Shown here: positions 12,894-21,266 of the stretch, in pieces
Layout: each line of letters opens with the position of its first letter
How positions within the stretch are numbered: position 1 is the first letter of the stretch
Source: Flavobacteriaceae bacterium
GTDB taxonomy: Bacteria; Bacteroidota; Bacteroidia; Flavobacteriales; Flavobacteriaceae
DNA: 64,000 nucleotides
Direction: 5' to 3'
NCBI GenBank assembly: GCA_021739635.1
Contig: JAIPBH010000005.1
Location: forward strand, 124,001-188,000
The notes under the pieces: model-generated
What the model was told of the DNA's origin: nothing
The model's database searches: none
The model's input: the letters and a program-made list of their open reading frames with translations, nothing else
Program-made: the position numbers and the translations under genes

Positions 12894-13709
12894 ATGGAAA
12901 GATTACCTAAAATTGGCATACCTATTATTATTGTTGCCATCATTCTTATTATAGTACTAGCAAAATCTGCAGTAACCATTGGCTCTGGGCAAGCTGGTGT
13001 TCTTTATAAAACATTTGACAATGGAGTTGTAACAGACCAACCACCTTTAGGAGAAGGATTTCATGTAGTAGCACCTTGGAATAAAGTTATAGTTTATGAA
13101 GTTCGTCAACAAGAACTTTTTGAAAAAATGCGCGTATTATCTTCAAACGGTTTAGAAATTCAAATTGATGCTTCTGTATGGTATGAGCCTATTTATAATG
13201 ATTTGGGGCATTTACACCAATCTGTTGGTGAGAATTATTTACAACGCGTTATTCAACCAGCTATTCGTAGTGCAGCAAGAAGTGTTGTTGGCCGCTATAC
13301 ACCTGAACAATTGTATTCAAGCAAGCGTGATGCTATACAAGATGAAATTTATATTGAAACCAAAAAGATTTTAGAAAAACAATATGTTCAATTAAATCAA
13401 GTTTTAGTTAGAGATGTTACTTTGCCAGACACTATTAAACAAGCTATTGAACGCAAATTAAAACAAGAACAAGAATCTTTAGAATATGAATTTAGATTGG
13501 TAACTGCACAAAAAGAAGCCGAAAAAGTGATTATTGACGCTAAAGGAAAAGCAGAATCTAACAGAATATTAAGCGCATCTTTAACAGATAAGATTTTACA
13601 AGATAAAGGTATTGAAGCAACTATAAAGTTGGCTGAATCACCAAATAGTAAAGTTGTTGTTATAGGTTCTGGCGATAGTGGATTACCCATTATCTTAGGA
13701 AATCAATAA
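12894..13709 (+). CDS. SPFH/prohibitin-family membrane protein
   Basis: The 271-residue protein has one N-terminal membrane helix (about 7-27) followed by an SPFH (Band 7) domain (about 28-200: SGQAGVLYKTFDNGV, RVLSSNGLEIQIDASVWY, GRYTPEQLYSSKRDAIQDEI) and a coiled-coil tail (about 195-235: KLKQEQESLEYEFRLVTAQKEAEKVI). This is the prohibitin/HflC-type architecture of ring-forming membrane scaffolds that often partner with the FtsH protease. Starting 12 bases after the vWA-like gene, it ends the fabG unit. No adjacent HflK or NfeD-type gene is present. Confidence 0.88.
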   Translation: MERLPKIGIPIIIVAIILIIVLAKSAVTIGSGQAGVLYKTFDNGVVTDQPPLGEGFHVVAPWNKVIVYEVRQQELFEKMRVLSSNGLEIQIDASVWYEPIYNDLGHLHQSVGENYLQRVIQPAIRSAARSVVGRYTPEQLYSSKRDAIQDEIYIETKKILEKQYVQLNQVLVRDVTLPDTIKQAIERKLKQEQESLEYEFRLVTAQKEAEKVIIDAKGKAESNRILSASLTDKILQDKGIEATIKLAESPNSKVVVIGSGDSGLPIILGNQ

Positions 13710-13747
13710 AGAAATGATTTAAGAATTTTTACTCATTCAAATAATTA

Positions 13748-13785
13748 TTTAAGATTATGCATTTTTTTTGCAATTAAATCTTAAA
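13748..13785. other. Hairpin after the SPFH gene
   Basis: TTTAAGATT (13748-13756) and AATCTTAAA (13777-13785) are perfect 9-bp complements. The spacer contains a run of eight T bases flanked by TGCA on both sides. It may mark the 3' end of the fabG transcript, but no T-run follows the right arm, so a terminator call is not secure. Confidence 0.4.
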
Positions 13786-13819
13786 ATATTCAATTCGGAA
13801 AAAATTAAAAACAAATACT

Positions 13820-13851
13820 TGGAATCATTCAATTAAATTTTAGATATTTGT
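13820..13851 (+). promoter_or_regulatory. Promoter of the histidine operon
   Basis: A TTG (13820-13822) is followed after 21 bases by GATATTTG (13844-13851), one base away from TAnnTTTG. It is placed 18 bases before the ATG of the leader peptide, which is what an attenuated operon needs. Confidence 0.6.
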
Positions 13852-13869
13852 TTATAGAATTTTAAAAAC

Positions 13870-13926
13870 ATGAATTTTATTAAATTACATCATCATCATT
13901 TTCAAATTTGCACTCAAGCGAAATGA
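13870..13926 (+). CDS. hisL: Histidine operon leader peptide, 18 aa
   Basis: The frame reads MNFIKLHHHHFQICTQAK and stops at TGA 13924-13926. Four consecutive His codons (CAT, 13888-13899) out of 18 codons, just upstream of a terminator hairpin and hisG, is the hallmark of a leader peptide whose translation senses charged tRNA-His. The start lies 18 bases after the promoter -7 box. It is too short for ordinary gene finders. Confidence rests on composition, position and the matching RNA structures downstream; expression has not been shown. Confidence 0.85.
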   Translation: MNFIKLHHHHFQICTQAK

Positions 13927-13987
13927 AAATGTATTGAATAATTTCAACATATATTTTAAACCCGTTTGAGACCATCAAACGGGTTTT
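13897..13987 (+). promoter_or_regulatory. Histidine attenuator: pause hairpin, antiterminator, terminator
   Basis: Three competing helices can be drawn by eye. Terminator: AAACCCGTTTGA (13958-13969) with TCAAACGGGTTT (13975-13986), a 12-bp perfect stem with a 5-nt loop and a T-run. Antiterminator: CTCAAGCG (13913-13920) with CGTTTGAG (13963-13970), 8 bp with one G-U, which blocks the terminator's left arm. Pause hairpin: CATTTTC (13897-13903) with GAAAATG (13925-13931) plus inner pairs (13904/13924, 13907-13909/13921-13923, 13910-13911/13918-13919), which sequesters the antiterminator strand. A ribosome stalled on the His codons would disrupt the pause hairpin and favour read-through. Confidence 0.8.
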
Positions 13988-14030
13988 TTAATGCCTAATT
14001 AGATTGTTTCAAACTCATAAAAACAAACAC

Positions 14031-14888
14031 ATGAGTAAATTAAAAATTGCAGTACAAAAAGCAGGTCGTTTACACGACGAATCCATGGAAATATTAAAGG
14101 ATATAGGTATTTCTATTGATAATGGTAAAGATCAATTAAAAGCCTCGGCCAGAAATTTTCCTTTAGAAGTTTTTTATTTAAGAAATGGCGATATTCCGCA
14201 ATATCTTAAAGACGGCGTAGTTGATGCCGCCATTATTGGAGAAAATATTTTAGTAGAAAAAGGTAATGGTATTACCATTGCTGAAAAATTAGGATTTTCT
14301 ACGTGCAAAGTGTCAATTGCCATTCCAAAATCTATAAAATATAACGGTATTCAGGATTTAGAAGGCAAACGAATTGCAACGTCTTACCCAAATACCATTC
14401 AAAGCTATTTAGATAAACACGGCATAAATGCCAATCTTCATATCATAAACGGGTCTGTAGAAATTGCTCCAAACATTGGTTTGGCCGATGCTATTTGCGA
14501 TATTGTTTCTAGTGGAAGTACGCTGTTTAAAAACAACTTAAAAGAAGTTGAAGTGATTATGAAATCTGAAGCTGTTTTGGCTGTTTCACCAGTTTTAAGT
14601 GAGGAAAAACAAGCTATTTTAGATAAAATACAATTCAGACTTCAATCGGTTTTAAAAGGAAGAAATTCTAAATATGTTTTGTTAAATGCTCCAAATGATA
14701 GGTTACAAGACATTATTGATATATTACCTGGTATGAAAAGCCCAACGGTTTTGCCATTAGCTGAAGAAGGTTGGAGTTCGGTGCATTCTGTCATCAGTAA
14801 AAATCAATTCTGGGATATTATCGATGAATTAAAAAAGAAAGGCGCTCAAGGTATTTTGGTTTGTCCTATAGAAAAAATGGTTCTTTAG
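14031..14888 (+). CDS. hisG: ATP phosphoribosyltransferase HisG (long form)
   Basis: HisG condenses ATP and PRPP, the first and feedback-inhibited step of histidine synthesis. The ATG at 14031 gives 285 residues starting MSKLKIAVQKAGRLHDES. This is the long form with a C-terminal ACT-like regulatory domain (about residues 205-285), so histidine feedback is expected and no HisZ subunit is needed. The motif ATSYPNTIQSYLDKHG (about 107-122) and the PRPP loop DAICDIVSSGSTLFKNNL (about 155-172) are clear. An in-frame TTG at 14004 was not chosen because it adds an unrelated nine-residue extension. It lies 44 bases after the attenuator and slightly before hisD. Confidence 0.95.
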   Translation: MSKLKIAVQKAGRLHDESMEILKDIGISIDNGKDQLKASARNFPLEVFYLRNGDIPQYLKDGVVDAAIIGENILVEKGNGITIAEKLGFSTCKVSIAIPKSIKYNGIQDLEGKRIATSYPNTIQSYLDKHGINANLHIINGSVEIAPNIGLADAICDIVSSGSTLFKNNLKEVEVIMKSEAVLAVSPVLSEEKQAILDKIQFRLQSVLKGRNSKYVLLNAPNDRLQDIIDILPGMKSPTVLPLAEEGWSSVHSVISKNQFWDIIDELKKKGAQGILVCPIEKMVL

Positions 14889-14899
14889 ATAATTTAGTC

Positions 14900-16183
14900 A
14901 TGCAAATAATAAATAATCCGAAAAGAAGTGATTGGTCCGAAATTTTAAAAAGACCTACACAAACCGTTGATGATATTGAAGCTAAAGTCATTAAAATTTT
15001 TAATGAAGTTAATCTAAATGGTGATGAAGCCATCAAAAAATACACCTTGCAGTTTGATGGCATTGATTTGAAATCTAATGAAGTTACTACTAATGAGATT
15101 GACTTTGCCATAGCCCATGTTTCTGATGAACTAAAAAACGCCATTAAAGCCGCAAAGCAAAACATTGAAGTTTTTCATGAGGCACAAAAAACAACAAAAG
15201 TCTCTGTTGAAACAGCCAAAGGCGTCATTTGTTGGCAAGAAAAAAGACCCATTGAAAAAATAGGCTTATACATTCCAGGTGGAACCGCACCATTATTTTC
15301 AACCGTTTTAATGTTGGCCATACCCGCACAAATTGCAGGTTGTAAAGAGATTGTATTGTGCTCACCACCAAATAAACAAGGAGCCATTGCTCCAGAAATT
15401 TTGTATGCAGCTCAACTTTGTGGTGTGACTAAAATTTTTAAAGTTGGAGGCATTCAGGCTATTGCTAGTTTGACTTTTGGAACTGATACTATTCCTAAAG
15501 TTTATAAAATTTTCGGTCCAGGAAACCAATTTGTAACCGTTGCTAAACAATTAGCAACAAAATATGGCGTCGCTATTGATATGCCTGCTGGACCAAGTGA
15601 ATTATTGGTTGTGGCCGATGAAAAAGCGAATGCTTCTTACATCGCTTCAGATTTGTTAAGTCAGGCAGAACACGGAACCGATAGTCAAGTCATCTTAGTG
15701 TCAACATCTCACCACCTTATAAAAGAAGTTTCTGAACAAGTTGAGAAACAATTACAGGTGCTTCCACGTAAAGCTATTGCAGAAAAATCCATATCAAATT
15801 CTAAACTCATTTATATTGAAAATGATGCGTTATCACTTCAATTAATCAATGAGTATGGACCAGAACATTTTATTATTTGCACAGAAAACGAGGATTTTTA
15901 TATTAACGGCGTTGCTAATGCTGGATCAGTTTTTATAGGAGATTATACACCTGAAAGTGCAGGTGATTATGCTTCTGGAACCAATCACACCTTACCAACC
16001 AATGGATTTTCTAAAGCCTATTCAGGCGTCAATTTAGATAGTTTTTTAAAAAGCATGACCTTTCAAAAAATTTCTAAAGAAGGCTTAAAAAATATTGGTA
16101 AAACCATTGAACTTATGGCAGAAGCCGAAGGTTTACAAGCGCATAAAAATGCCGTGTCAATACGATTAAAAGATTTGAAATAA
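14900..16183 (+). CDS. hisD: Histidinol dehydrogenase HisD
   Basis: HisD oxidises L-histidinol to L-histidine in two NAD-dependent steps. From the ATG at 14900 it has 427 residues, the usual family length, beginning MQIINNPKRSDWSEIL. Visible signatures are the NAD-binding region (GLYIPGGTAPLFSTVLM), FGPGNQFVTVAKQL, the zinc-site region SQAEHGTDSQVILV, and EYGPEHFIICTEN with the catalytic E-H pair, followed by the GxNHTLPT segment. An in-frame upstream TTG (14861) inside hisG would add 13 residues and is less likely. The stop shares one base with the hisC start (TAATG), a sign of translational coupling. Confidence 0.96.
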   Translation: MQIINNPKRSDWSEILKRPTQTVDDIEAKVIKIFNEVNLNGDEAIKKYTLQFDGIDLKSNEVTTNEIDFAIAHVSDELKNAIKAAKQNIEVFHEAQKTTKVSVETAKGVICWQEKRPIEKIGLYIPGGTAPLFSTVLMLAIPAQIAGCKEIVLCSPPNKQGAIAPEILYAAQLCGVTKIFKVGGIQAIASLTFGTDTIPKVYKIFGPGNQFVTVAKQLATKYGVAIDMPAGPSELLVVADEKANASYIASDLLSQAEHGTDSQVILVSTSHHLIKEVSEQVEKQLQVLPRKAIAEKSISNSKLIYIENDALSLQLINEYGPEHFIICTENEDFYINGVANAGSVFIGDYTPESAGDYASGTNHTLPTNGFSKAYSGVNLDSFLKSMTFQKISKEGLKNIGKTIELMAEAEGLQAHKNAVSIRLKDLK

Positions 16184-17226
16184 TGGATATTCAAAACTTA
16201 ATACGACCAACCATAAAAGCATTGAAACCTTATTCATCAGCTAGAGATGAATTTCAAGGTGTTCCTGCTGATATGGTTTTTTTGGACGCCAACGAAAACC
16301 CTTTTGAAAACGGGGTAAATCGGTATCCTGATCCGCATCAAAATAAATTAAAAGGCATTTTATCAAAAATTAAAAATATTCCAAATCAAAATATCCTTTT
16401 GGGTAATGGCAGTGATGAAGTTTTAGACCTTATTTTTAGAATGTTTTGTGAACCCAATAAAGATAATGTTATCATTCTTCCTCCAACCTACGGAATGTAT
16501 GAGGTTTTGGCTAATTTGAATGCAATTGAAACTATTAAAGTAATATTATCAGAAACTTTTCAGCCTAAAGTTGAAGATATTTTGAGTGTTTCAAATACAA
16601 ATAGCAAACTTTTATTTTTATGTTCGCCTAATAATCCAACAGGAAATAGTTTTACTACACATGAGGTTGAAAAATTATTAACAGGTTTTAAAGGTATTGT
16701 GGTTATTGACGAAGCTTATATTGATTTTTCCAAAGAAAAAAGTTGGATAGAACGATTGGAAGAATTTCCAAATCTTATTATAACACAAACCTTATCTAAA
16801 GCCTATGGAATGGCAGGTATTCGTTTAGGTATTTGCTATGCTTCAACAGAAATTATTTCTGTTTTGAATACTATTAAACCACCCTATAATGTAAATGAGT
16901 TAACGCAACAGAAGGCCATAGAAAATCTTAATAAAGTTGATTTAGCCAAAATTCAAATAGCAGATATTTTAAAGGAAAGAGATATTTTAATCTCAGAATT
17001 AAAATCGATTAATTTTGTTTCTAAGATTTATCCTTCTGACGCTAATTTTATTTTAATCAAAGTAGATGACGCTAATAAAAGATATTCTCAACTCATTGAA
17101 AAAGGTATCGTTATTAGAAACAGAACCACTCAATATGGTTGTGAAAATTGTTTAAGAATTACTGTAGGAACAGCTTTTGAAAACAAAAAATTAATTACAG
17201 AATTACGCGAACTTCAAAGTTTATAA
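16183..17226 (+). CDS. hisC: Histidinol-phosphate aminotransferase HisC
   Basis: HisC is a PLP-dependent class I/II aminotransferase that converts imidazole acetol phosphate and glutamate to histidinol phosphate. The 347-residue product has [18 protein letters not shown] at about 29-46, [13 protein letters not shown], the SPNNPTGN loop, the aspartate in [10 protein letters not shown] and the PLP lysine in [14 protein letters not shown], with RITVGT near the C-terminus. Its ATG overlaps the hisD stop by one base. Length and motifs are normal. Confidence 0.95.
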
Positions 17227-17228
17227 GT

Positions 17229-18362
17229 ATGAAAAAGGTATTGTTTATTGATCGTGATGGCACCATTATAAAAGAACCAGCTGATGAGCAAATTGACTCA
17301 TTTGAAAAGCTTCAATTTTACCCAAAAGTATTTCAATACTTAAGTAAAATAGCAAAAGAGTTGGATTATGAATTGGTTATGGTTACTAATCAAGATGGCT
17401 TAGGAACTGATGTTTATCCTGAAGATACTTTTTGGCCAGTGCATAACTTTGTAATGAAGTGTTTTGAAGATGAAGGCGTCATTTTTTCAGAACAGTTTAT
17501 TGACAGAACCTTTGCAAAAGACAATGCACCTACTAGAAAGCCTAATACAGGTTTATTAACCAAATATTTTTCTGAAGATTATGATTTGGAAAACTCCTTT
17601 GTGATAGGAGATAGGTTAACGGATGTTGAATTAGCTAAAAATTTAGGAGCAAAAGCGATTTTTATTAACGATGAAACTCATTTAGGAGTTAATGAAATCA
17701 CCACAAAGCGTGAAGAATTAAACAATTACATAGCTTTAGAAACCAATGATTGGCAAAAAATTTATGCGTTTTTAAAAGCTGATGATAGAAGTGGAGGTAT
17801 TATAAGAAATACTAATGAAACCAAAATTGCTATTCAATTAAATCTTGATGGTACCGGTAAAAGTAAAATTGATACAGGTATTGCTTTTTTTGATCATATG
17901 TTAGACCAAATTGCACGACACGGACAGTTGGATTTAAAAATACAGGTTGATGGCGATTTAGAAGTCGATGAGCATCATACTATTGAAGATACAGCGATTG
18001 CATTAGGAGAATTATTTCATTCGGTTTTAGGAAATAAATTAGGGATTGAACGATACGGGTTTTGCTTGCCAATGGATGATTGTTATGCACAAGCAGCCAT
18101 CGATTTTGGAGGACGAAATTGGTTAGTTTGGGAAGCAGATTTTAAACGAGAAATGGTTGGAAAAATGCCAACAGAAATGTTTTATCATTTCTTTAAATCG
18201 TTTACTGACGGTGCAAAATGCAATCTGAACATTAAAGCAGAAGGCACTAATGAGCATCATAAAATTGAAGCTATTTTTAAAGCCTTTGCAAAAGCCATTA
18301 AAATGGCTGTAAAACGTGATATTGAAAAAATGATTTTACCATCAACAAAAGGAATGCTTTAA
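17229..18362 (+). CDS. hisB: Bifunctional histidinol-phosphatase / imidazoleglycerol-phosphate dehydratase HisB
   Basis: This 377-residue fusion carries two non-consecutive steps of the pathway. Residues about 1-165 are a HAD-family histidinol phosphatase with the nucleophile motif IDRDGT (6-11), the VTNQDG segment and [10 protein letters not shown]. From about residue 185 to the end it is IGP dehydratase, with [28 protein letters not shown] and the second metal motif [16 protein letters not shown]. The fused arrangement matches the E. coli HisB layout. It is separated from hisC by two bases and shares one base with the hisH start (TAATG). Confidence 0.96.
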
Positions 18363-18943
18363 TGAAATTAGTCATTTTAAATTATGGAGCTGGAAACATA
18401 AAAAGCATTCAGTTTGCTTTTAATCGCTTAGGTCTTGATGCAGTTTTATCCAATAATCCTGAAGAAATTTCAGCTGCTGATAAAATTATTTTTCCAGGAG
18501 TTGGTGAAGCCAGTACCGCTATGAATAAATTAAAAGAAAGTGGTTTAGATAGGTTGATTCCAAATTTAAATCAGCCTGTTTTAGGTATTTGTTTGGGAAT
18601 GCAATTATTATGTAATTCTACTGAAGAAGGGCATACTAAAGGACTTGGAATTTTTAATACGGTTGTTAAACGATTTTCAAATGATGTAAAAGTGCCTCAA
18701 ATGGGATGGAATGTTATTAAAAATTTAAAATCTGATTTGTTTTCTGGAATTAAAGAAAATGAATATATGTATTTAGTTCACAGCTATTATGCTGAACATT
18801 GTGCAGAAACCATTGCAACTACTGATTATGGTGTAAATTATGCATCAGCATTACAACATAAAAACTTTTATGGGGTTCAGTTTCATCCAGAAAAGAGTAG
18901 TTTAGCAGGAGCAAAATTATTGCAGAATTTTATAGAATTATAA
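18362..18943 (+). CDS. hisH: Imidazole glycerol phosphate synthase glutaminase subunit HisH
   Basis: HisH is the class I glutamine amidotransferase that feeds ammonia to HisF. The 193-residue product shows the nucleophile C77 in [10 protein letters not shown] and the catalytic H-E pair in [10 protein letters not shown] (about 174-178). The oxyanion region is PQMGWN (about 118-123). The start shares one base with the hisB stop, and hisA follows two bases after. Its partner hisF is in the same operon but after hisA. Confidence 0.96.
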
Positions 18944-18945
18944 CC

Positions 18946-19680
18946 ATGAGAATTATACCAGCCATAGACATTATAGATGGAAAATGCGTTCGTTTAACTA
19001 AAGGCGATTACGAAACTAAAAAAGTCTATAATGAAAATCCACTTGAAGTTGCCAAAGCATTTGAAGCTTCGGGCATTGAATATTTACATTTGGTTGATTT
19101 AGATGGAGCAAAAGCGCAACACATAGTTAATTTTAAAGTATTGGAGCAAATAGCTTCAAAAACTAGTTTAAAAATCGATTTTGGTGGCGGACTTAAAGCT
19201 AATGAAGATTTGTATATTGCTTTTAACTCTGGTGCTAAACAAATTACAGGAGGTAGTATCGCTGTTAAAAACCCAAAAATATTTGAAGGTTGGATATCAA
19301 AATATGGTGCTGCTAAAATTATTTTAGGAGCTGATAGTGATCAAGGGAAAGTATCTATTAGTGGTTGGATGGAACAAAGCAAAGAAGATTTAATTCCTTT
19401 TATTAAAGACTATCAAAAGAAAAGCATTCAGTACGTTATTTGTACAGATATTTCAAAAGATGGGATGCTTGAAGGTCCTTCCATAGAATTATATAAAAAT
19501 ATCATTGCCGAATGTAGTAACAGTAGTAACGGTCAATCTATTAAATTAATTGCTTCAGGTGGTATTTCATCTATCGAAGAATTGCCAATACTTAAAGAAA
19601 TAGGTTGTGAAGGGGTGATTATTGGAAAAGCTATTTATGAAAATAGAATAAGTTTAAAACAACTTGAAAAATTTGTCTAA
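18946..19680 (+). CDS. hisA: ProFAR isomerase HisA
   Basis: HisA isomerises the aminoaldose ProFAR to the aminoketose PRFAR by an Amadori rearrangement. The 244-residue beta/alpha barrel has the catalytic aspartate D8 in [14 protein letters not shown], the second aspartate region in [13 protein letters not shown] (about 163-175), and phosphate-binding glycine loops DFGGGLKA and IASGGISS. It is slightly divergent between the last two motifs ([12 protein letters not shown] insertion-like loop). A long structured gap separates it from hisF. Confidence 0.95.
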
Positions 19681-19686
19681 AATTAA

Positions 19687-19754
19687 AAGTACAATATTAA
19701 ATTTTAGAAGTAAAAACCTCAGAAATAAAATTTTTAACTTTTAATATCGTACTT
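19687..19754. repeat. Long imperfect hairpin in the hisA-hisF gap
   Basis: AAGTACAATATTAA (19687-19700) pairs with TTAATATCGTACTT (19741-19754) at 13 of 14 positions. An inner ATTTTA (19701-19706) can pair with TAAAAT (19726-19731). The loop contains AAAAACCTCAGAAA. The layout resembles the leuC-leuD gap at 26798-26840, which also has an ACCTCA loop. There is no T-run after the right arm, so read-through to hisF is expected. Confidence 0.55.
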
Positions 19755-19806
19755 CTAACTTAAAAATATGTTTAATTAAGTTTAAATTATTGGTTATCTG
19801 GTTTTT

Positions 19807-19846
19807 ATAACTTTATAACTTTATAACTTTATAACTTTATAACTTA
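19807..19846 (+). repeat. Tandem 8-bp repeat before hisF
   Basis: The unit ATAACTTT repeats from 19807 in five nearly perfect copies, the last ending in TA. It ends seven bases before the hisF ATG, so the repeat forms the translation-initiation leader of hisF. Copy number of such short units can vary by slippage. Confidence 0.85.
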
Positions 19847-19852
19847 AAATAA

Positions 19853-20608
19853 ATGTTAACAAAACGAATCATTCCGTGTTTAGATATTAAAAATGGGAGA
19901 ACAGTTAAAGGAGTCAATTTTATTGATTTGAGAGATGCTGGTAATCCTGTTGAATTGGCTAAGCAATACGCCAATATGGGTGCAGATGAGTTAGTGTTTC
20001 TTGATATTTCAGCCACTTTAGAAGGAAGAGCCACTACTTTAGAAATGGTATTACATGTGGCTGAACAGGTTAATATTCCATTTACGGTTGGAGGTGGCAT
20101 TTCGTCCATTGAGCATGTAGATGCTTTATTGCAATGTGGGGCAGATAAAATATCTATCAATTCATCAGCAGTTAAAAGGCCTGAATTGGTCAATGAATTA
20201 GCTGAAAAATTTGGAAGTCAATGCGTTGTTGTTGCTATTGATGCTAAGGAAGTTAACGGACAATGGAAAGTGCATTTAGCAGGTGGAAGTATTCCAACGG
20301 ATATCGATTTATTTGAATGGGCTAAAGAAGTGGAACAACGTGGCGCAGGTGAAATTTTATTCACGTCCATGAATCATGATGGTACTAAAAATGGCTTTGC
20401 AAATAAAGCATTGGCTAAACTTTCAGAAACATTAAATATTCCAATTATTGCTTCTGGAGGCGCAGGAACTATGCAACATTTTGTTGATACCTTTAAAGAT
20501 GGTAAGGCCGATGCTGCTTTGGCTGCCAGTGTATTTCACTTTGGAGAAATACCCATTCCAGAATTAAAAAAAGAATTAAAAAAACATCATATAGAAGTAC
20601 GGCTTTAG
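19853..20608 (+). CDS. hisF: Imidazole glycerol phosphate synthase cyclase subunit HisF
   Basis: HisF uses ammonia channelled from HisH to make imidazole glycerol phosphate and AICAR from PRFAR. The 251-residue barrel has D11 in [17 protein letters not shown], the second catalytic aspartate in [20 protein letters not shown] (about 130), [12 protein letters not shown] and the phosphate loops VGGGISS and IIASGGAG. The ATG at 19853 comes right after the tandem repeat. Length and motifs are normal. Confidence 0.96.
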
Positions 20609-20620
20609 TTGAATTACAAT

Positions 20621-20645
20621 CTCACCTTGAGCACAGTCGAAAGGT
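20621..20645. repeat. Short dispersed-repeat remnant in the hisF-hisIE gap
   Basis: The piece contains ACCTTGAGCACAGTCGAAAG, in which ACCTT (20624-20628) and AAGGT (20641-20645) form a small hairpin. On the reverse strand it reads like the TCGACTGTGCTCAAGGT repeats that are common between genes in Flavobacteriaceae; this recognition is from memory and only one copy is in the window. Confidence 0.45.
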
Positions 20646-20672
20646 TTTATAGCTTTCAAAAAAAATTAAATT

Positions 20673-21266
20673 ATGAATATTAAATACGACACCAACGGAC
20701 TCGTTCCAGCAATCATTCAAGATGCAACAACAAAAAATGTATTAATGTTGGGTTATATGAATGAAGAAGCTTATCAAAAAACCTTAGACACAAAAAAGGT
20801 TACTTTTTTTAGTAGAAGTAAACAACGCCTTTGGACAAAAGGAGAAGAAAGTGGACATTTTTTAAATCTTGTAGATATTAAAAACGATTGTGATCATGAT
20901 ACGTTACTTATTCAAGTAAACCCTATTGGACCAACCTGTCATAATGGAACAGATACCTGTTGGGGCGAACAAAACACTTCTAATTACGGTTTCTTTTCAA
21001 ATTTAGAACATGTTATTACAGAACGAATTACTAATAAAGACACCAATAAATCATATGTTGCAAGTTTATTTGCAAAAGGTATTAATAAAGTAGCGCAAAA
21101 AGTAGGTGAGGAAGCTGTTGAAACCGTTATTGAAGCTATGGATAATAACGATGAGTTGTTTCTTTACGAATCAGCAGATTTAATGTTTCATTACCTCATG
21201 TTGCTTCAGGCAAAAGGCTTTACACTTAAAGATATTGAGGCCGAATTAAAAAGCAGACACAAATAA
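20673..21266 (+). CDS. hisIE: Bifunctional phosphoribosyl-AMP cyclohydrolase / phosphoribosyl-ATP pyrophosphatase HisIE
   Basis: HisIE carries the second and third steps of the pathway. The N-terminal HisI domain (about 1-110) has VLMLGYMNEEAYQKT, the FFSRSKQRLWTKGEESGH segment and zinc ligands in NDCDHDTLL and GPTCHNGTDTCW. The C-terminal HisE domain (about 112-197) has the MazG-like helices with KVGEEAVETVIEAM and ESADLMFHYLMLL. The 197-residue length is typical of the fusion. It is the last gene of the his operon and is followed at once by a strong bidirectional terminator. Confidence 0.96.
   Translation: MNIKYDTNGLVPAIIQDATTKNVLMLGYMNEEAYQKTLDTKKVTFFSRSKQRLWTKGEESGHFLNLVDIKNDCDHDTLLIQVNPIGPTCHNGTDTCWGEQNTSNYGFFSNLEHVITERITNKDTNKSYVASLFAKGINKVAQKVGEEAVETVIEAMDNNDELFLYESADLMFHYLMLLQAKGFTLKDIEAELKSRHK

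Follow-up and report, generated by a model that had tools for sequence, protein, structure and literature searches.

The region upstream of hisG in this Flavobacteriaceae bacterium is best read as a ribosome-mediated, classical transcription attenuator of the his operon, of whose presence we are almost certain, extended by a fifth strand that can pair either with the left arm and loop of the terminator (3:5) or with the start of the first gene (5:6). The attenuator itself is of a known type; the conserved fifth strand is what is new. On the comparative evidence given below, 3:5 is very probably a selected RNA pairing. The presence, in this species and many relatives, of an extra strand that pairs with the terminator or with the first gene's start suggests that one RNA decision serves both transcription and translation, and an attenuator extended by a translational layer into a two-layer switch is the explanation that we find best overall, with a modest preference. 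The preliminary description of this DNA had recognised a his-operon attenuator that works by ribosome stalling; that reading is supported by the relatives and was incomplete, having missed the strand at 14002-14014 and both of its partners. The window, here and below, is the whole 64,000-nucleotide stretch of DNA that was analysed.

Promoter, leader and operon

The elements that frame the attenuator are:

13819..13821, + strand: TTG, the -33 element of a Bacteroidetes-type promoter (promoter pattern in relatives)
13843..13850, + strand: -7 element GATATTTG, of the TAnnTTTG type of Bacteroidetes (promoter pattern in relatives)
13870..13926, + strand: his leader peptide ORF of 18 codons, MNFIKLHHHHFQICTQAK, with stop TGA (sequence; leader in relatives)
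13888..13899, + strand: four CAT (His) control codons (sequence; His leader in relatives)
14031..14888, + strand: hisG (TIGR00070), its first codons, 14031-14036, being segment 6
14861..21266, + strand: the rest of the operon, hisD, hisC, hisB, hisH, hisA, hisF and hisIE in that order (best NCBIfam model for each, above the curated cut-off)

The 18-codon leader with four CAT codons in a row is read exactly as first described, at 13870-13926 with the CATs at 13888-13899. It is the sole case in the 64-kb window of HHHH inside an ATG mini-ORF of 8-40 codons, where an order-1 Markov model (30 simulations) leads one to expect 0.067 such mini-ORFs per 64 kb. A promoter had also been placed upstream of the leader; one is indeed present, as TTG at 13819 and GATATTTG at 13843-13850, and it is of the Bacteroidetes type rather than the sigma-70 type. 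A sigma-70 scan returned 3 matches against 3.8 expected in shuffles, with none on the his strand, whereas 114 of 170 relatives have the pattern TTG-N17-23-[TGA]AnnTTTG, where shuffles predict 2.2. TAnnTTTG is the -7 consensus named for Bacteroidetes in extracts of PMC9723704. The real hisG start is most likely the ATG at 14031; the mechanical ORF list begins at the TTG at 14004. Upstream of the promoter lies a gene (12894-13709) with weak HflK/HflC similarity, under the models' cut-offs, and after it, at about 13747-13786, an A+T-rich inverted repeat with a T run mid-way that by eye is perhaps its terminator.

The classical helices

The strands of the attenuator proper are:

13897..13904, + strand: strand 1, left arm of the pause hairpin, pairing with 13924-13931 (pairing in 142 leaders)
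13913..13920, + strand: strand 2, 5' arm of the antiterminator, pairing with 13963-13970 (pairing in 142 leaders)
13924..13931, + strand: right arm of the pause hairpin, holding the leader stop codon (pairing in 142 leaders)
13926..13957, + strand: middle hairpin within the antiterminator (RNAfold)
13958..13969, + strand: strand 3, left terminator arm (paired with strand 4 in 98.8% of cells)
13975..13986, + strand: strand 4, right arm of the terminator (pairing in 142 leaders)
13984..13989, + strand: T run of the terminator, its first three bases lying in the right arm

The pause, antiterminator and terminator helices were proposed in the preliminary description and each withstood closer inspection. 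The pause hairpin at 13897-13931, said to sequester the antiterminator strand, is real as 13897-13904:13924-13931 with an inner helix at 13907-13911:13918-13922; the 8-bp antiterminator 13913-13920:13963-13970, which excludes the terminator, is likewise real and includes one G-T pair; and the arms of the 12-bp terminator, 13958-13969 and 13975-13986, are perfectly complementary. The pause hairpin holds the antiterminator strand and overlaps the control codons, as is expected of an attenuator. An automated terminator scan of the window does not list the 12-bp hairpin, probably because the scan wants a T run after the stem. When the nascent RNA was folded from strand 2 on, 2:3 was predicted for ends at 13972, 13976 and 13980, and 3:4 for ends at 13984, 13986 and 13990. 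Directly after the pause hairpin, TGTATTG (13930-13936) is nearly invariant in relatives, and the helices account for part of this only.

Conservation of the leader and covariation of its helices

A His leader was taken to be a mini-ORF with at least 3 His within 6 codons, 5' of hisG. Loci of hisG were collected from the genus (7 genomes), the family (199 genomes, 166 with hisG), named genomes (80 loci), the phylum (198 genomes, 171 with hisG) and the order (119 genomes, 61 with hisG); among these we examined 30 loci and 60 stretches from the family, 30 loci and 40 stretches from the phylum search and 30 stretches from the order, some family rows being the same genomes as named loci. The check proposed at the outset, a search of relatives for the His leader and covarying pairs, did not refute the reading: none of the 106 distinct upstream regions in the first set lacks the leader, 1:2 and 3:4 covary beyond shuffles, and 2:3 does so more weakly. 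The next sets have the leader in 76 of 77 family rows, the sole miss (L143) having just 118 nt of upstream sequence, and in both of their two order rows. Further order rows, from other families of the order, have it in 29 of 30 cases; the exception, L273 (G453), is an endosymbiont-sized genome of about 0.6 Mb in which hisG is kept and a His leader was not found.

More distant rows, at the level of class and phylum, carry the leader in 41 of 49 cases, those without it being L241-L243 and five of the other 46 (L206, L207, L209, L217 and L239). The phylum rows are biased to window-like HisG: in about 70 of the 171 listed genomes, by our count, HisG shows 31% identity or less, and the three of these that were examined (L241-L243) have no leader. 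As few genomes with divergent HisG were examined, the leader claim covers Bacteroidota with window-type HisG, not the whole phylum. The his attenuator before hisG in most of the Bacteroidota regions examined offers a ready test bed. Five distant Bacteroidota (L210, L212, L214, L237 and L238) have His leaders with, by eye, no obvious intrinsic terminator before hisG, and these leaders may act by a different route; our own terminator finder overlooked visible terminators (for example in L193), so its misses carry no meaning.

Covariation was scored on alignment A2, which holds 142 of 170 leaders, namely those with at most 130 nt from leader stop to hisG. The comparisons are with shuffles, which related sequences can surpass for other reasons. 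On this basis 1:2 is paired in 91.4% of cells, with 117 double-changed cells against 27.0 in shuffles and a score of 0.233 against 0.133, and with the inner helix included both sides have changed at 9 of 13 pairs; 3:4 is paired in 98.8% of cells, with 23 double-changed cells against 2.1 and a score of 0.113 against 0.074; and 2:3 is paired in 97.7%, with 5 double-changed cells against 0.6 and a score of 0.068 against 0.059, its covariation support being small because 2:3 varies little. Sliding the partners of 1:2, 3:4 and 2:3 by 1-3 columns lowers pairing to 59% at most. In A1, an alignment of 70 of these 142 short leaders selected by hand, the values for 1:2 and 3:4 were much the same and 2:3 did not covary clearly; the TTG/CAA core of the middle hairpin is paired in 94-97% there and its flanking pairs in just 4-71%. 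A1 includes just three (L029, L085 and L112) of the 48 leaders without a good 3:5 and therefore leans to 3:5; for this reason the counts were redone on all 142 leaders and our claims rest on A2. The leader, the terminator, the covariation of 1:2, 3:4 and 3:5, the weak covariation of 2:3 and, in a subset of genomes, the complementarity of 5:6 are thus established at the level of sequence comparison.

A fifth strand complementary to the terminator

Downstream of the terminator a further conserved strand was found, together with its partner:

13964..13976, + strand: segment of strand 3 and loop, GTTTGAGACCATC, that pairs with strand 5 and mimics the hisG start in many relatives (complementarity, relatives)
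14002..14014, + strand: strand 5, GATTGTTTCAAAC, the conserved complement of strand 3 and loop (complementarity, relatives)

The complementarity spans 13 nt; in the window it is broken once, by 13973 opposite 14005, and the sister genomes L002-L005 match throughout. Rows with too little upstream sequence (L039, L143), with a GTG leader (L156) or with no anchor (L099, L161) were left out of the 3:5 counts. With at most two mismatches 3:5 is found in 120 of 168 terminator-anchored leaders, 76 of them perfect, against 5.2% of 3360 shuffles. The duplex has an energy of -13.0 kcal/mol against -4.9 when shuffled, and with bulges allowed it reaches p<=0.05 in 137 of 167 leaders, one short row having been left out of this test. 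In A2 the covariation score of 3:5, 0.246 against 0.131 in shuffles, is the highest of the four helices tested; 88.5% of cells are paired and 130 are double-changed against 48.3, and 0 of 500 shuffles reach either value.

The strand-3 segment and strand 5 also change together. Among the first 105 leaders the segment takes 22 forms, and strand 5 fits the form of its own genome with a mean of 24.3 against 16.3 for other forms, a value that none of 10000 permutations reaches; a few genomes, such as L034 and L101, fit their own form no better than others. On a HisG tree the last seven bases of the 13-nt segment have changed at least 16 times among the 84 rows that retain the pairing, and at the three most variable 3:5 positions the two sides have changed 7 and 5, 6 and 4, and 8 and 7 times. 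A control across genomes is weaker than the shuffles, since, GTTTGAG being shared, foreign strand-3 segments fit with at most two mismatches in 45% of 4126 trials; a perfect fit is seen for 3.3% of foreign segments against 76 of 168 for a leader's own. Beyond the family, 3:5 is present in 19 of 26 usable order rows (L267, L268, L269 and L273 having been left out of the order-row counts of 3:5 and 5:6), including L261 and L264, whose terminator sequences are quite different. A loop-only pseudoknot of the terminator hairpin with strand 5 was also considered. It is possible and is disfavoured by the kept pairs to GTTT of strand 3: strand 5 keeps these pairs (1-4) mostly via A-to-G and C-to-T changes, which favours the long 3:5 helix.

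The pairing is not universal. A good ungapped 3:5 is absent from 48 of 168 leaders, among them L007 of the same genus, and its presence or absence has switched at least 20 times on the HisG tree; these 48 leaders retain the attenuator, for which the extra layer is dispensable. Where hisG starts ATGAC, 15 of 25 leaders are without a good ungapped 3:5. Six leaders (L007, L010, L034, L051, L061 and L063) have no significant 3:5 and retain the attenuator; in the gap between terminator and hisG, about at the place of strand 5, they have repeat-like hairpins such as CCCGTTAAAACGGGAATC.

Possible pairing of the fifth strand with the hisG start

The second partner of strand 5 is the start of hisG, with which it would pair in part through the following element:

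14013..14018, + strand: ACTCAT, a part of 5:6 and the complement of ATGAGT at the hisG start (complementarity)

In relatives with a GTAAA loop, strand 5 contains GATTTACTC and hisG mostly starts ATGAGTAAATT or ATGAGTAAACT, so that the same bases can pair with hisG codons 1-4; the strand 3 of these relatives (TGAGTAAAT) mimics the hisG start. In relatives with a GACAA loop, including L002-L006 of the window's genus, it is ACTCAT at the end of strand 5 that pairs with ATGAGT. Elsewhere hisG has a different start or third codon, and in several such lineages the three elements (given here in the order strand 3, strand 5, hisG start) have changed jointly: GAGTACATC, TTTGTACTC and ATGAGTACTTT in L184-L186; GAACCAATC, CGGTTC and ATGAACAAA in L075; GAGCAATC, GGTTGTTC and ATGAACACC in L265; and GCCGAAGTGTTT, AAACACTTAGGC and ATGCAAAAGTTA in L261. 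In L083 and L115 3:5 is kept and the hisG start does not fit strand 5.

When the whole downstream stretch is compared with shuffles, 5:6 reaches p<=0.05 in 62 of 168 family rows and 15 of 26 order rows (77 of 194), and is not beyond shuffles in 106 of the 168 family rows. Of these 77 rows, 75 also have 3:5, and in 74 the two pairings overlap by at least 3 nt. The conformer, closure and strand 5 plus 6 duplex tests were made on the 120 leaders with 3:5, and the barrier and openness tests on 118 of these. Taking strand 5 plus 6 bases as the query, 5:6 reaches p<=0.05 in 77 of the 120, and in 102 folding closes the hisG start more with strand 5 plus the following 5 bases than with shuffled versions. 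The ATGAGT start is found in 101 of 120 leaders with 3:5 against 18 of 48 without. A tree-aware comparison of the joint loss of 3:5 and 5:6 is not significant, with 4.7 pairs in agreement on average, 0 against, and a median p of 0.0625.

These figures bear on the strongest rival, an unlikely one in our judgement, which holds that the attenuator is plainly classical and that the 3:5 hairpin in the read-through mRNA serves mRNA stability or 5'-end processing, not hisG translation. The strength of the 3:5 covariation, set beside a 5:6 that is significant in only 62 of 168 family rows, speaks for it, as does the replacement of strand 5 by another hairpin in some leaders (L007, L010, L034 and L051, by eye). 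It does not, however, account for a strand 5 that closes the hisG start beyond its shuffled versions in 102 of 120 leaders, nor for strand 3, strand 5 and the hisG start changing together in several lineages. That 3:5 works instead by a relay to hisG translation is a proposition to which we give an even chance.

Predicted conformers and the remaining alternatives

Relative energies, barriers and accessibility of the start were predicted by folding only, with thermodynamic models in which ribosomes, polymerase and pseudoknots are ignored. With strand 2 included, the predicted mean probability that the hisG start is unpaired (118 leaders) is 0.43 in 2:3, 0.42 in 3:4 and 0.60 in 3:5. The terminator is generally predicted to be the deeper state, 3:4 being favoured over 3:5 by a median of 1.9 kcal/mol, with 31 of 120 leaders favouring 3:5; in the window itself 3:4 is predicted to be better by 5.7 kcal/mol. 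At predicted equilibrium 3:4 dominates with a mean probability of 0.72 against 0.26 for 3:5 (0.08 in the GTAAA class). Predicted median barriers along direct paths are 8.2 from 2:3 to 3:5, 14.0 from 2:3 to 3:4 and 21.2 from 3:4 to 3:5, the last of which in part reflects the deeper 3:4 state. The predicted saddle to 3:5 is lower than that to 3:4 in only 77 of 118 leaders, and 3:5 is predicted to be more stable than 2:3 in only 51 of 118, so the proposed exchange from 2:3 to 3:5 would be about energy-neutral.

A quite improbable alternative gives 3:5 the opposite sign: the helix, which ends about 16 nt before the hisG AUG, would hinder 30S binding and repress leaked transcripts. The spacing suits such an action: of 120 leaders, 46 have 16 nt between strand 5 and the AUG, and 99 have 11-25 nt. 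Yet for 92 of the 120 folding predicts a start that is more open with 3:5 than with 3:4 (less open for 3), and this reading would not explain why strand 5 is complementary to the hisG start. More doubtful still is a trans-acting leader, in which the terminated leader RNA would pair via its terminator loop with strand 5 of the full-length his mRNA. A trans-acting attenuator RNA is known from Sinorhizobium, and here the loop lies wholly inside the complementary stretch; this stretch, however, also takes in six nt of the terminator's left arm, and that stem would need to open; the cis partner, moreover, is always closer. Finally, although template-switching mutation can make inverted repeats alike without selection, a functionless inverted repeat kept alike by template switching in replication is scarcely credible here, since a G-T pair is kept at pair 7 in about half of genomes (G-C in 51 and G-T in 50 of 103), which means that the repeat is not made perfect as DNA, and since the pairing extends across many genera, and into further families of the order, with a spacer whose sequence is not conserved.

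Proposed model for a two-layer switch

For the translational extension of the attenuator, we infer the response to histidine, the order of events and the effect on translation as follows. In the first layer, the leader ribosome would sense His-tRNA at the four CAT codons. With ample histidine the ribosome would proceed, 1:2 or the ribosome itself would occupy strand 2, and 3:4 would form, leading to termination before hisG. A ribosome stalled on the CATs would cover strand 1, allowing 2:3 to form and the polymerase to continue into hisG. In the second layer, strand 5 would be transcribed only in read-through RNA, where it would have two mutually exclusive partners, 5:6 with the start closed and 3:5 with the start open. 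Where 3:4 had formed and termination had failed, strand 3 would be locked and strand 5 would turn to 5:6, leaving hisG poorly translated. Where 2:3 had formed, the adjoining loop bases would provide a free toehold from which strand 5 could displace strand 2, giving 3:5 and opening the start. The off state would thus be 3:4 with 5:6, and the on state 2:3 and then 3:5. We consider it a balanced proposition that in the window's order the his attenuator has five strands, with a terminator strand that mimics the hisG start and a decision passed to translation by this toehold exchange from 2:3 to 3:5. If true, one leader ribosome would set both transcription and translation, by means of an RNA strand resembling the start of the gene under its control.

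Comparison with known systems

A comparative study of the attenuation of bacterial amino-acid operons by Lopatovskaya et al. (2010) may already cover Bacteroidetes his leaders. The his attenuator of E. coli and Salmonella (hisL; RF00514 His_leader) resembles the present one in its His-codon leader, its alternative pause, antiterminator and terminator hairpins and its position directly 5' of hisG, and differs in sequence and promoter type. RF00514 has no match in the window at its gathering score (49 bits), and the window locus gives none at E<=1; L184 scores 33.9 bits and the E. coli K-12 control 131.6 bits. The same duplex test on E. coli his, with segments cut by position, gave -9.2 for 3:5 against -7.7 shuffled and -6.6 for 5:6 against -8.0, neither of which is above shuffles. 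Extracts of a 2013 review describe translational control of the finished his mRNA as unreported in E. coli or S. typhimurium (PMC3896937).

The regulation of amino-acid operons in Bacteroidota seems little studied. The transcriptome of Flavobacterium psychrophilum gave strong clues to leader peptide attenuation upstream of amino-acid operons (PMC9723704, in extract); its main text contains neither 'histidine' nor 'his operon', and a fifth strand goes unmentioned in the extracts. Short ORFs resembling leader peptides were noted in Bacteroides thetaiotaomicron (PMC7366714, in extract), and in extracts of PMC8305728, a paper about Bacteroidota his genes, attenuation comes up with reference to S. 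enterica and E. coli. A translational layer would act in a setting where, according to passages of PMC6847099, Shine-Dalgarno sequences are naturally absent from Bacteroidota, and where initiation in Flavobacterium johnsoniae, which has none, is tuned by structure near the start codon.

Several systems share features with the proposed switch, as far as excerpts of the sources describe them. In tlrB (yxjB) of Bacillus subtilis, stalling of the ribosome on the leader peptide lifts transcription termination and also frees the downstream start region from sequestration, but the gene confers antibiotic resistance, the hairpin sequesters a Shine-Dalgarno sequence and that paper identifies no overlapping antiterminator (PMC6851288). 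One leader of the B. subtilis trp operon sets termination and, via a second structure, trpE translation; here, however, the TRAP protein and not a leader ribosome is the driver, and the excerpts do not describe a terminator strand as anti-sequester (PMC12288461). Sequester and anti-sequester structures have been proposed at the first his gene of Corynebacterium glutamicum, in the hisD 5' UTR, although as a T-box-like arrangement with no His leader peptide (PMC3896937, in extract). In the open PubMed Central literature, part of it represented by extracts, we found no his attenuator described with a fifth strand, and combined control by one leader was found for the antibiotic-induced tlrB leader and for TRAP and not for a leader-peptide attenuator of an amino-acid operon.

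Other leaders in this and related genomes

A strict pattern of the his element, which misses many true leaders, was searched for second copies in 60 genomes and gave 30 matches in 29 genomes with no second his-type copy seen; the matches G008:C67 and G024:C6 look unrelated by eye, and a reversed control pattern gave 6 matches. Strand 5 was rejected as a general feature of attenuators in the window's genome, as the 11 nt that separate T run and ATG at trpE are too few to hold it, and upstream of ilvD in the same genome no clear leader was seen. The sequence 5' of trpE (L246, G000:C24) consists of a Trp leader, MNTILNNTWWWSFMKLNFVK, and then a terminator, with 11 nt between the end of its T run and the gene. 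Before a thrA-like gene with a homoserine dehydrogenase domain (L280, G000:C15:197500-199500) there is a leader, ...FFGITTTTTTLWGC, followed by a short hairpin, and this leader is likely a threonine attenuator.
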